Under the pieces are notes generated by a model. That model was not told the DNA's origin, did not search any database, and was given only the letters and a program-made list of their open reading frames with translations. Shown piece by piece: positions 3,088 to 39,167 of a DNA stretch of 44,012 bases (position 1 is the first letter of the stretch; every line of letters starts with the position of its first letter). The stretch spans positions 1 through 44,012 of the forward strand of contig JAICSO010000032.1 of assembly GCA_025936825.1 (NCBI GenBank), read 5' to 3'. The position numbers were made by a program, and so were the translations under genes. Origin of the DNA: Terriglobales bacterium (GTDB lineage Bacteria > Acidobacteriota > Terriglobia > Terriglobales > Acidobacteriaceae).

Positions 3088-4698
3088 CTACTTTTTCCAT
3101 TCGATACCGGGGTATAGACTCGGCATTCGATAGCCACGATAGGTGCTAACGCCGCCAGTAACATTCATCTGCCAGACGAGTTGGGTGTTGTCATGAGTTA
3201 CCTCACTGATTTGCCCTCCGGTAACGGGGCCGAAGGGTGCGCTGCTGTCGAACTCGAGGTCACCATTGGTCAGAGTGCCAATACTGCCTCCCCAAAAGGA
3301 AAAAAAACCGGGCAGATATTGCCACTCTATCTTGGCAGTCATGGCGCCCTCGTCTACGTTGAAAATTGCGGCTCGGGAATAGCAATTCGATGGCGGCGCA
3401 AATGTGCACTGTACTCCGTTAGAATCGACCCGAAAATCGCCATTGTCATAGACAGCCAAAGTGAATTGCGGACCGTTCGCGCTTAACATGTTCGGGAAGT
3501 GTTGCGCATAAAACCACTGGCTCGAGTCACCGTTTGTTAAAGTGAATTTCGCAAAGCTCTGGTCTTCTCCCGGAAGCACTTCACCCAGTCTCCACAAGAT
3601 GTCACCGGCGCCCGTGCCATTCGCGTAGTCGAGTTTCAGAATCCAGCTCTGGTGTCGCATGGAGACAAGCAGATTGCCGTCGGCCGTGTAAACCAGAGCG
3701 TTCGAGTGCGTCCAGTCGGGCAATCCAAAGTAAGGATGCCGATTGACGTCCAAGTGATCGAAAGCCGACCACGCCCACGCAACATTTCCATCCAAATCGA
3801 TGTCAAGCACCGCGTCGCCGACGACATTTGTGGTGCCAGGGTACCCAGGCAAATCCGTGAAACTTTTAGCGATTTGCGCAAGCGCGATCCAATGGCCATT
3901 GGGCAGAACTAATACATCGTGGTGCAATTGGTTTCCGCCTAGTAGTCCCAACGGTGGCGGAACGATGAAAGAATAGCCACTGGCTTGAAGCGACTGATTG
4001 ATTTGATCCACAGAAATATGGCGGATCACCTTGCAGGATAGATCGATTTCCTCCAGAGAGGAATTCCGAACAATGATGAAGTCTCCATTTTGCATAGGTT
4101 TGACAGGGAACGCGAAACCGGGGCAGTACCAGATGATATTTCCCTGGAGGTCGACCGCCACAGCCTGTACGGCTGCATTTTCATTTGCATTGGAGGTGAG
4201 GCTGAGCAATTCCACGCCGGGTGCGGGGGTGAGCCCCGGGGTAGGGAGGGTAACGGTGATGGCTGGAAACTGCACAATGGAAGGTGAAGATGGAGGCTGC
4301 GCGCTCACCGGCCCGGGGAGGGCACCGGTGGTAAAAGTGTGATCGTCATCGACAAATGAGCCGGTTGGCGTCTCAACATGTGCGCGCATGTGGTACGTGG
4401 TCTGCGGCAGCATACCAGCCACCAGAACGTTCACAACGGCGTTGCCAGGAACGCTGCCGGAGTCACTCACTTCCGACGTCCGGCGCCCGTACGTGGTATC
4501 GGTTCCAAATTCCACCCAGGCCGAGAAGCCGGGTTGATAGTGCCTGACGCTGTATTGGGCTACAAGCGGATTCGCGGTTGGCGTAACACCAGTCTCATAT
4601 GGAATGTAGTTCGAAGTGGCACAGCCCAGCGAAGCGATGGTCAAGACGGCAGCGCAAAAAAAGAATGCAACTCGCGTGTGAGTCAAAGTCTGGGACAC
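3088..4698 (-). CDS. Arylsulfotransferase (ASST)-like lipoprotein, copy 2
   Basis: This is the second copy of the secreted ASST-like propeller. It has the same order as copy 1: signal ending ASLGC-ATSN (near-lipobox), fibronectin-like module (WVEFGTDTTYGRR ... YHMRAHV ... HTFTTG), then the propeller with LHHDVLVLPNGHW, DWTHSNALVYTADGNLL, WILKLDYANGTGAGDILW and FYAQHFPN. It is about 25 residues longer, mostly a Pro/Ser-rich linker after the first module and an insert before the GDSSQW segment. The GTG at 4698 sits inside an AAGGTG that would make a good ribosome site for the TTG at 4686, and the TTG matches the start chosen for copy 1; the shorter form is therefore likely. Both copies keep the histidine motifs, so both may be active. 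It converges on the damaged PilZ copy, 90 bases apart. Confidence 0.75.
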   Translation of the reverse strand: MSQTLTHTRVAFFFCAAVLTIASLGCATSNYIPYETGVTPTANPLVAQYSVRHYQPGFSAWVEFGTDTTYGRRTSEVSDSGSVPGNAVVNVLVAGMLPQTTYHMRAHVETPTGSFVDDDHTFTTGALPGPVSAQPPSSPSIVQFPAITVTLPTPGLTPAPGVELLSLTSNANENAAVQAVAVDLQGNIIWYCPGFAFPVKPMQNGDFIIVRNSSLEEIDLSCKVIRHISVDQINQSLQASGYSFIVPPPLGLLGGNQLHHDVLVLPNGHWIALAQIAKSFTDLPGYPGTTNVVGDAVLDIDLDGNVAWAWSAFDHLDVNRHPYFGLPDWTHSNALVYTADGNLLVSMRHQSWILKLDYANGTGAGDILWRLGEVLPGEDQSFAKFTLTNGDSSQWFYAQHFPNMLSANGPQFTLAVYDNGDFRVDSNGVQCTFAPPSNCYSRAAIFNVDEGAMTAKIEWQYLPGFFSFWGGSIGTLTNGDLEFDSSAPFGPVTGGQISEVTHDNTQLVWQMNVTGGVSTYRGYRMPSLYPGIEWKK

Positions 4699-32709: not shown

Positions 32710-34115
32710 ATGGCGAACGTCGGCCGAATGACCCGAAGCGCGTTATTTTGTCTCCTACTCCTGCTCGTCTCAGCGACCGCTCTTTTGCTGGCTCTCAACG
32801 CGTGCGGCTATCCAACCACGCCTGCTCGTCTCGGGCAAGGGAAGCTCCTGCACATCGTAATAGTCGTGCAAGAGAACCGTACTCCCGACAACCTATTCCA
32901 CGATCCAGTATTGATGGCAAGAGGGGCGGATATTGCAAGCGTAGCCAGTATATCCTCGGGCTCTAAGGTTCCGCTTGAGCCCACGCCCCTCGGCGTCGGA
33001 TATGACCTGAGCCACGCTCACGAGGCCTTTCTGCTGACGTACGATGGCGGGAAGATGGATGGGCGCCGATAAAATCAGAGTCTTTTGCGACATCCCTCCC
33101 TGTAATAATGCCGCATTCAAGTACGTTCGAGCCCCCGATATAGCTCCCTACTTTCAAATGGCAGAGCAATATACCTTCGGCGATCGTATGTTTCAAACCA
33201 ATCAAGGCCCCGGTTTTCCTGCTTACCGGTTCCTTATCTCCGGCACATCGGCTCCTACCGAAGGCAGCCATCTGTTTGCAGCCGAGAATACAAATATTGC
33301 CTTTGTCGGTGGCTGTAACGCTCCTCTAGTGGCCAGTGTGCCTCTGATCGGTCCGGATGGAAAAGAAGGCGCGCACATCTTTCCCTGCTTCGAGCATGCA
33401 ACCCTTACCGACGAACTCGATTCGAGAGGTCTCTCGTGGCGCTAGACAGTATGGGCATCCGCGTAACCCAGCGACTGCAGCCGGAACACATGTTCGATAA
33501 GGTTCAGGATGCTCCCGAAGTCATGGTTGAGGTGGGAAATGTATGCCGGCCTGGCATAAGGCGAGATGACGATCAGCGGCACGCGGAAGCCATACACATA
33601 TCCCGATCCCCAACTTTTGCCATCATTAATGATCTTTGGCGGCGGTACATGATCGTACCAGTCACCCCAATCGTCCCAAGTGACAATTATCGCCGTGTTG
33701 GACCAGAACGGGCTGTTGCCAATGGCGTTAACAATGGAGGCAACCCAAGAGGGACCACCAGCTGCATTGGAGAGACCAGGATGATCGGAATACTGCCCTG
33801 CAGGTGTGATCCAAGTCACGGCCGAAAGGCTGCCATTCCTTATATCCGTGAGAAATTGCTTCGACGGAATGATCACGTGTCTCCAGGCTTCGCCGGTGCA
33901 GACAAACTCGCCGTTTTCTTTACGTGGTTGGCACATGTGCCGGATGGCATTCGGGGCACTCCAAATAGAGTTTGGGGTGGGCGCATAGTAGTGACTTGTC
34001 GGACTGTTTCAGCTTCGCCCAAACGCCTCTGCAGTTCAAAAGCATCGAAGCGTCTCTGAACGCGGAGTACTTCATCAACGATACGAGCGTGCCTGAGGAT
34101 CCAGATAGCGACTGA
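32710..34115 (+). pseudogene. Phosphoesterase (phospholipase C/acid phosphatase type), broken by frameshift and inversion
   Basis: This is a secreted metal-dependent phosphoesterase of the phospholipase C/AcpA superfamily, in three pieces. Piece 1 (32710-33072) has a signal ending LLLALNAC and HIVIVVQENRTPDNLFHD, the family's ENR-x-x-DNLF active-site start. One extra G in the GGG at 33060-33062 shifts the frame; translation resumes as GADKIRVFCDIPP and TFGDRMFQTNQGPGFPAYRF, ending RGLSWR at 33442. The expected next residues, YYAPTPNSIWSAPNAIRHMC, are found on the opposite strand, running from 33990 down to 33448 (ITPAGQYSDHPG, TWDDWGDWYDHV, VPLIVISPYAR, HDFGSILNLIEHVF, LGYADAHT). The C-terminus (DLSDCFSFAQTPLQF ... 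PEDPDSD, stop) is back on the plus strand at 33993-34115. The gene cannot make a whole enzyme. Confidence 0.88.
33448..33990 (-). other. Inverted middle segment of the phosphoesterase gene
   Basis: This 543-base block (181 codons) reads in the phosphoesterase frame only on the minus strand, while both flanks read on the plus strand. Turning it round restores SWR-YYAP at the left and DAHT-(S)DLSDCF at the right, apart from five extra bases (TAGAC, 33443-33447) and about one lost base at the right join. No inverted repeat longer than about five bases is visible at the ends, so it looks like a repair scar and not a recombinase-driven switch. Confidence 0.85.
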
Positions 34116-34554: not shown

Positions 34555-35619
34555 CTACTTTACGCGCTTCGCATAGAGGGATCGCATGTACGATGTGACA
34601 TTGTTAATGGAGCCCGTCATGACCCACGTACGGTACGTATTCTCGCCTGCTGATACGGTATCCGGGCCGTAGACAGCGGCGAGCTTCGACGTACTGAAGT
34701 CGCCGGGGCCGGTTCCTGGTTTCTGCTTGCACTCCGCAACCTTTGTGAGGTTCCAAAGCGTGAAGTAATTTACGGAACCACCCTCGCTCCTGTTAACACC
34801 ATAGATGGCCATCGCGTGGGCGGTCGAAACGTCGGTGCCATCAGAGACGATGACCCCCCCGAAACCAAATGTCTTGTAAGAGTATCCTTTAGGTGGCTTG
34901 GTCGCGCACCCATCCGGAACTTGAGCGCTGACTGGCGTGAGCGTTTGCTTCGCCGCATCATAGGTCCAGTAGACGTTGAATTTTCCTGGAACATAGATAC
35001 TTGGGATTTCGACTTGCGCCTTTGGAAGCGATTTGGGGATGTCGAGTTTGACATACGTCGAATACTGCCCCACCGGGCCTAGGTTGTTGAAATTCAGGGT
35101 GAGATCCTTCCCCATGAGAACATCCTTCCACACGACGGGGTGGCCCGGTGCACCGCCAAAGTTCTGAGGATTAAACTCGAGAGGGATTGCACGCGAGCTT
35201 TGCGTATTTCCCCGGTTGGACAGCGAGTAAAGTGGCGAGCCCTTGCGGTCAGCTCGCCTCGAAAAGGCATCTCCCGCCTCGGTGGGGTTCGAGTTCTTGG
35301 CATCGCCAGGAAAGAGAGACGACTGCATTTCGCGCCCGAGATCCCACGTATTGATGAATTCAATCCCGTTCCAAACCCACGACCACACCGAACCGCCCGC
35401 CGCCGGATTGGATCGGATGGTGACACCACCTGCAGTGAGGGAGCGCAGCGAGGACGACCGGAGATTGTCTTTTCGGACGGGTTTGGGAGCACGCTCCAAA
35501 CGATCCAGCCGCACCGACGATCCAGCCGTCTGGCTCCAGAGAACCTCAGGAAGTTCTGCGCATGCGGTCAGCGCAAGGGCACCCAATACACTCACGCGCC
35601 ACACAGTCCGAAAAAACAT
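34555..35619 (-). CDS. Lipoprotein of unknown function
   Basis: This is a predicted lipoprotein of 354 residues with a clear lipobox (VLGALALTAC-AEL). I do not recognise its family. The mature part is rich in aromatic beta-strand segments: WSWVWNGIEFINTWDLGREMQ near residue 80, a PLEFNPQNFGGAPGHPVVW stretch, a YVKLDIPKSLPKAQVEIPSIY strand pair, and GVNRSEGGSVNYFTLWNLTK near residue 285. This composition suggests a beta-sandwich or jelly-roll, possibly sugar-binding. It stands alone, with pseudogenes to the left and a long gene-free stretch to the right. The ATG at 35619 has GGAGGG a few bases upstream on its strand, supporting the start. Confidence 0.6.
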   Translation of the reverse strand: MFFRTVWRVSVLGALALTACAELPEVLWSQTAGSSVRLDRLERAPKPVRKDNLRSSSLRSLTAGGVTIRSNPAAGGSVWSWVWNGIEFINTWDLGREMQSSLFPGDAKNSNPTEAGDAFSRRADRKGSPLYSLSNRGNTQSSRAIPLEFNPQNFGGAPGHPVVWKDVLMGKDLTLNFNNLGPVGQYSTYVKLDIPKSLPKAQVEIPSIYVPGKFNVYWTYDAAKQTLTPVSAQVPDGCATKPPKGYSYKTFGFGGVIVSDGTDVSTAHAMAIYGVNRSEGGSVNYFTLWNLTKVAECKQKPGTGPGDFSTSKLAAVYGPDTVSAGENTYRTWVMTGSINNVTSYMRSLYAKRVK

Positions 35620-37935: not shown

Positions 37936-38739
37936 TCAGTAATTAAGCTCGTTAAGCCAATCAAAACTGTCGGCTCCTGGACGGCGTACGAGAGTGGCGT
38001 CAGCGATTTCCTGTTTTCCAAGGCAGAGTTCTACATACGGACAGCTCGTACACGGATTCTGCGGAAAACGGATCCCACTGTGCGGCAGAAAGTCCGCCGA
38101 CTCGATTCGCCGGATCGTGCTCTCTACTAACCTGCCAAACTCCAGGCGCTGTTCGTCGCTGATGGTGGTGCGTAGGTACTGAACCTCGACCAAGCTCTTG
38201 CGGACGAAAACAACCTGCGCGACTTCCGCAATACCCGTTATCCATGAGTAGCAGACCAGTTGCGGGTCGAGGGATAGCAAGCCCTCCGGTTCTTCCGGGT
38301 AGCGACTGGAGCTGGTTTTCCACTCGATGAGGCACCGCCTGCGGTCGAGTTTTCCAATGGCATCGATATAGGCGACGAAGTCGTTGCTGTCGCTGATGCT
38401 ATGACTGAACTTCACGTGCAGATCTCTCTGAGGCTGGTTGATCTGCACGCGACCGTCTTGGCAGAAGCGGGTCAAGAGCATGATTCCTTGCTGAAGCATC
38501 CGATCCCAGGAGTCTCGGTTGGAGTATTGCAAGCGTTCGTTCTGGGAAGCAGACCACTCGGCGAACAATACGGCTCCCGGATCCTCTCGACGAAAGAGCG
38601 CGCCCAAGGCCCGCTCGAAGGCGCGACCGAAGAGCATCGCGGCTCGCGTGTCTTTCTCTTTCCAGCCATCCAGATACCGATGCCGATAGCGCCGCGGACA
38701 GGAGAGGTATTGGCTGATCTGGGTGTAACTGTAGGTCAT
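37936..38739 (-). CDS. PD-(D/E)XK nuclease with likely [4Fe-4S] cluster (Cas4/RecB-like)
   Basis: This is a nuclease of about 267 residues. The start is the ATG at 38739, which shares one base with the upstream stop (TGATG) and has AGGTGG before it. The N-terminus YTQISQYLSCPRRYRHRY is the QxxxY-CPR-type opening of RecB/AddB/Cas4 proteins and supplies the first cluster Cys. The nuclease core is FVAYIDAIGKLDRRRCLIEWKTSS, that is the D then E-x-K active site. The second cluster part is NPCTSCPYVELCLGK (C-x2-C-x5-C), completing four cysteines. The role is probably 5'-3' or single-strand exonuclease work next to an annealing protein, as in phage recombination systems. No CRISPR array or cas1/2 gene lies nearby. 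Confidence 0.8.
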   Translation of the reverse strand: MTYSYTQISQYLSCPRRYRHRYLDGWKEKDTRAAMLFGRAFERALGALFRREDPGAVLFAEWSASQNERLQYSNRDSWDRMLQQGIMLLTRFCQDGRVQINQPQRDLHVKFSHSISDSNDFVAYIDAIGKLDRRRCLIEWKTSSSRYPEEPEGLLSLDPQLVCYSWITGIAEVAQVVFVRKSLVEVQYLRTTISDEQRLEFGRLVESTIRRIESADFLPHSGIRFPQNPCTSCPYVELCLGKQEIADATLVRRPGADSFDWLNELNY

Positions 38740-39167
38740 CAGGCCACCTGCGGGTTGTCCAGGTTGGCGGGAGAAAGTTCTTCCCAACGCCCAGCAGGAG
38801 CAAAGCCATCGAGCCGGAGCAGGGAAGTGCCGTTAAGGACGATTTGACTGATTTTGACCACACCTTTAAGACCTACGAGTTGCGTTTCGTCCACCTCGTC
38901 GCGCCCAAGCAGTTCGCTGTCGTAGCCAAAGTCCCGCAAGAACCAGTTCAGCTTCCACAGAGCTTTCGGGCTGCAATACAGTCTGCTCGAGAGAGTGAGA
39001 CCAGCAAATCGGCTGGGCTCGAGAACTGCAAGAGCCAGCGTGTAATGAGGCTTTGGTGACTGCCGACGAAACTGGACTCGTTGGACCCGAACAAGGAACA
39101 CTCCGTCGGGGATCTGGTCGGCAGCACTGCGATCGGCGGCGTGTAGACCAGTGATCTGGCGTTTCAT
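38739..39167 (-). CDS. Small protein, candidate ssDNA-binding partner
   Basis: A 142-residue protein from the ATG at 39167, which overlaps the stop of the annealing-protein gene (ATGA). It has a beta-rich centre (DGVFLVRVQRVQFRR, YTLALAVLEPSRFAGLTLSSRLY) and a helix KALWKLNWFLRDFGYD. It ends with VGLKGVVKISQIVLNGTSLLRLDGFAP, a strand pair followed by a Gly turn. The order resembles phage DUF669-type proteins and other OB-fold ssDNA binders that sit between annealing protein and exonuclease genes. Similarity is by layout and position, not by clear motif. Confidence 0.5.
   Translation of the reverse strand: MKRQITGLHAADRSAADQIPDGVFLVRVQRVQFRRQSPKPHYTLALAVLEPSRFAGLTLSSRLYCSPKALWKLNWFLRDFGYDSELLGRDEVDETQLVGLKGVVKISQIVLNGTSLLRLDGFAPAGRWEELSPANLDNPQVA

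Follow-up and report, generated by a model that had tools for sequence, protein, structure and literature searches.

Composition of the locus

The analyzed window comprises the entire contig C105, 44,012 bases long, which belongs to a draft genome of 6.54 Mb with 141 contigs and 99.67% completeness. At 32710-34115 four coding stretches, here named P0001 to P0004, follow each other (Table 1). Judged from their sequences, these stretches are parts of one gene of the PF04185 phosphoesterase family. P0002 and P0003 scored 30.2 and 121.9 bits against the Pfam profile, both above its cut-off of 23. P0001 and P0004, searched singly, had no Pfam match, and both matched the same relatives as P0002 and P0003. 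The product of the original gene was probably a secreted phosphoesterase of the PF04185 family (acid phosphatase / phospholipase C superfamily). Among structures, P0003 matched the acid phosphatase PDB 2d1g (E 4.2e-17) and, more weakly, five phospholipase C chains. Scores against TIGR03397 (acid phosphatase) and TIGR03396 (PC-phospholipase C) stayed under the curated cut-offs, as would those of fragments, which the pieces are. P0001 additionally carries the sequence LLLALNAC, a putative lipoprotein signal. Opposite the coding strand of the flipped segment, the plus strand is open over 207 codons (33436-34059); this antisense frame had no Pfam match.

Table 1. Features of the interrupted gene, in window coordinates
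Feature	Position	Strand	Basis
P0001, N-terminal part of the putative phosphoesterase pseudogene	32710-33060	+	translation; tblastn matches in relatives, among them L021 (52% identity, E 4.9e-31)
One-base frameshift, approximate place	33061	+	window changes frame; pieces contiguous in relatives
P0002, middle part, PF04185 profile positions 98-182, ends in SWR	33062-33442	+, other frame	Pfam (E 3.3e-7); tblastn
Left-junction five bases, without counterpart in closest relatives	33443-33447	+	junction comparison
P0003, inverted segment of 543 bases, 181 codons without stop, PF04185 profile positions 226-355, holds WDDWGDWYDH	33448-33990	-	Pfam (E 4.5e-35); tblastn
Right-junction two bases, where relatives have three or six	33991-33992	+	junction comparison
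P0004, C-terminal part (DLSDCF...PDSD) and stop codon	33993-34115	+	translation; tblastn

Neighboring genes and relatives of the locus

A large polysaccharide cluster spans 6567-32030 of the window, with Wzi-like, Wzz-like and SLBB export genes, glycosyltransferases, an O-antigen ligase and a sugar transferase. Beyond it two arylsulfotransferase genes are located at 655-2190 and 3088-4698. On the other side of the broken gene, a 354-codon frame (34555-35619) had no Pfam match, and among 40 other genomes a single one contained a recognizable relative. A PD-(D/E)XK nuclease gene at 37936-38787 has three more nearly full-length copies in the genome (66-69% identity); copies also occur in two genomes of the same genus, G003 and G004, and one G003 copy contains a stop codon. 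The suggestion that the nuclease gene at 37.9-38.8 kb is itself broken was rejected, since frames of similar length occur in relatives.

The flipped segment matched the host genome at a single place and is thus single-copy. Its best match among the relatives was found in genome G051 with 66% identity (65% by tblastn), and the same-genus genome G003 carried a match at 63% (58% by tblastn). The closest relatives with named records were acidobacterial metagenome genomes with 47-50% identity at eight loci, recorded as Acidobacteriaceae, Candidatus Sulfotelmatobacter and Acidobacteria, which makes an acidobacterium the most likely host. On the DNA level only short stretches of the locus were recovered in five of the seven other genomes of the genus, and no match was found in the remaining two.

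Besides the phosphoesterase, only four frames of the window had matches when eight relative stretches were compared. Three were in L079 (two glycosyltransferases and one flippase-like frame) and one, a radical-SAM frame, in L084, with identities of 19-27%. The relatives therefore show the order within the phosphoesterase gene and do not represent the same locus. In L079 (G034:C10 1147000-1166000) the phosphoesterase gene is located within a few kb of the flippase-like and glycosyltransferase-like frames, and the window likewise has its phosphoesterase gene near a polysaccharide cluster. In L084 (G013:C29 60000-79000) the flipped piece was matched five times within 13 kb, a local expansion of the family.

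Order and orientation of the pieces

Each piece was compared separately by tblastn with 56 fetched loci, four loci overlapping the window's own gene having been left out, and matches were obtained in 53 of them. After removal of two duplicate loci, and with the proviso that the two collections may in part sample the same species, P0002 and P0003 were located on one strand in all 30 loci matching both, and P0003 and P0004 in all 12. P0002 and P0003 abutted without a gap in 15 of the 30 loci; in the other 15 they ranged from a 27-base overlap to a distance of 45 bases, a spread which arises in part because local alignments end early. The spacing between P0003 and P0004 was three bases in seven loci and six bases in five. 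In total, 11 loci contained all four pieces.

The reverse comparison gave the same picture. When proteins of 15 relatives were used as queries on the window, 14 produced neighboring matches on opposite strands, with the full plus-minus-plus pattern in eight and plus-minus only in six. The single query without a pattern was a fragment of 66 residues taken in the wrong frame. Since P0003 matched relatives at E values as low as 1.9e-74 and the PF04185 profile at 4.5e-35, a chance resemblance is excluded.

These results bear out most of a first-pass annotation of this DNA made from the letters alone. It had described N- and C-terminal parts on the plus strand with 181 minus-strand codons between them, and its coordinates proved exact to the base. 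Its assignment to the phosphoesterases agrees with the profile scores, and its proposal that flipping 33448-33990 restores the expected order is upheld by the uniform strand of the pieces in the relatives. That homologues might naturally lack the inverted segment had been named as a refutation, but the relatives carry the segment in place. The statement that the active-site half lies in the inverted part stood in part: WDDWGDWYDH is found there, whereas the motif ENRTPDN (ENRTPDNLFHD), presumably catalytic and part of the active site as well, belongs to P0001.

Frameshift and state of the reading frame

Upstream of the inversion the gene is interrupted a second time. In five relatives (L019, L021, L022, L023 and L026) P0001 and P0002 join directly in the same frame, and the window shifts frame near 33061, so that the separate one-base break reported earlier for this place was confirmed as a frameshift. 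Instead of the single uninterrupted frame of the relatives, the gene thus changes frame near 33061 and strand at 33443-33992. Because of this interrupted frame we class it as a presumed pseudogene and not as a working PF04185 member. A loss of function would be expected to follow from the inversion and the frameshift.

If the gene is dead, its decay is recent, because none of the 465 codons of the four pieces is a stop (the final stop left out). Under simulated neutral change, the share of runs in which all pieces remained free of stops was 5.6% at 8% change and 2.8% at 10%. Among 55 columns invariant in 14 relatives three were changed in the window (2/16 in P0002 and 1/39 in P0003), with the FPAHQ histidine and one WDDWGG glycine among them. 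Tested in the same way, two of the 14 relatives deviated at three and five columns and the other 12 at zero to two. With the six closest relatives as the reference, the window differed at 5/51 and 6/75 columns and lay inside their own range (2-6/53-57 and 1-14/76-90). The changed invariant columns hence lend weak support to a relaxed constraint. On this reading of the sequence, the gene appears to be a dying or dead, recently broken phosphoesterase pseudogene.

Outside the contig 13 other PF04185 matches were found; two of them fall into a single 752-codon frame on C14. The genome accordingly has 12 other PF04185 genes, whose frames are free of stops and span 309-752 codons; given these, the broken gene may have been redundant.

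Junctions of the inverted segment

At the left junction the window has five bases where the 15 abutting relatives have none, and at the right junction two bases where relatives have three or six. Judged by this spacing, the earlier description of a five-base addition and about one lost base was a fair one.

Exact inverted repeats shared by the two junctions reached at most 4 nt within 15 nt, 5 nt within 30 nt and 7 nt within both 60 and 100 nt. Random pairs at the same spacing did as well or better in 275, 284, 174 and 271 of 300 cases, respectively. No inverted repeats beyond chance were therefore present at the segment ends within 15-100 nt of the junctions. Junctions of this kind, lacking repeats and showing small gains or losses of bases, are expected of an inversion by end joining. 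A hairpin at the break point was considered as well and rejected: in L017 a 5-bp perfect hairpin has the left junction in its loop, but such a hairpin was absent there in all six other relatives. Loops of 5-bp perfect hairpins take up 1.8% of the bases of L017 and 3.2% of those of the window.

Origin of the inversion

We consider it very probable that the window carries a real, accidental and non-switching in-place inversion of 543 bases, accompanied by an independent one-base frameshift. The inversion is probably irreversible. Its most likely origin would be a pair of double-strand breaks spaced about 545 bases from each other, or one break and a template switch, with end joining then sealing in the middle fragment in reverse orientation. 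End joining would explain why a few bases were gained or lost at the junctions and why repeats are absent. A Ku gene (PF02735) is present, with one match in the genome on C32 (E 1.8e-49), which means that end joining could occur here, not that it did. Based on the absence of repeats and the presence of Ku, we put end joining as the repair pathway at about even odds.

An assembly artefact, with the segment built into the contig in the wrong orientation, appears unlikely. The genome is a draft of 141 contigs; however, the segment is single-copy and not bounded by inverted repeats, which leaves little cause for an assembler error, and a simple mis-orientation would not create the bases gained and lost at the junctions relative to the relatives. 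The separate frameshift in the same gene also speaks for real damage, though that frameshift too could be an error. We hold it to be very unlikely that a since-departed transposable element, or recombination between copies now lost, turned the segment around. The few extra junction bases could be the footprint of such an event, but it would have required two near-clean excisions, the junctions show no repeats beyond chance, and Pfam scans of 50 window frames or pieces (110 frames listed) revealed no transposase.

A programmed switch requires repeats and a recombinase. The genome contains six resolvase-type (PF00239) and 26 tyrosine recombinase (PF00589) matches, none of the six and none of the 26 on C105. 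These matches elsewhere could be cited for a reversible switch, in which a recombinase flips an intragenic inverton, as could the position of the inversion, which is in place, intragenic and sharp-ended. The nearby polysaccharide cluster would fit too, as invertons often adjoin surface-modification genes according to PMC11892184. The same paper describes inverted repeats of 10-40 nt on either side of invertons, whereas the ends here share 4-7 nt, not above chance, and no such recombinase was matched on the contig. Furthermore, there are net extra bases at the junctions compared with the relatives, and flipping the segment back would leave the frameshift near 33061 uncured. Because flanking repeats are missing and flipping cannot cure the frameshift, we regard such a switch as very unlikely.

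A further reading would be that the segment flips in living cells without flanking repeats, or that the lineage is prone to Ku-dependent repeat-less inversions within genes. We judge this highly unlikely; if true, these bacteria would repeatedly lose genes through in-place inversion. A scan for other in-place inversions compared 1508 reading frames of the genome and the 15 proteins of relatives with 2.39 Mb (36% of the genome). Non-self matches were obtained for 689 queries and yielded 32 opposite-strand pairs, 31 of which were proteins of relatives on the present gene. The remaining pair, at the cut edge of a stretch and with matches 1000 bases apart, was judged ordinary and taken for two neighboring genes. 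No clear second inversion was thus found in this 36% of the genome, in a scan of low power, as the genome's own paralogs missed the window's own case.

An accidental inversion of this kind is an unusually legible example of a gene broken in place without repeats, and its legibility is owed to the still undecayed state of the gene. Examples like this are easily missed: a gene caller would report short frames, and maybe the 207-codon antisense frame. The present case alone is a single pseudogene; a systematic search could measure how much gene loss takes this route in Ku-bearing bacteria.

Comparison with known systems

The locus resembles the PF04185 phosphoesterase family in that P0002 and P0003 match its profile. 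It differs from working members by the split of the gene through inversion and frameshift and by three altered family-invariant residues. With invertons, and intragenic invertons in particular, it shares an in-place inversion within a gene. Unlike these, it lacks flanking repeats above the chance level, its contig gave no recombinase match, its junctions contain additional bases, and a frameshift disables the gene further.

Small inversions without repeats, produced by illegitimate recombination or end joining, form a class of their own. The absence of repeats, small gains or losses at the junctions and a broken gene are features of this class, and the same features were found here, with no evident difference from the class. 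The inversion is therefore a known kind of event, of which this locus is a clean new case.
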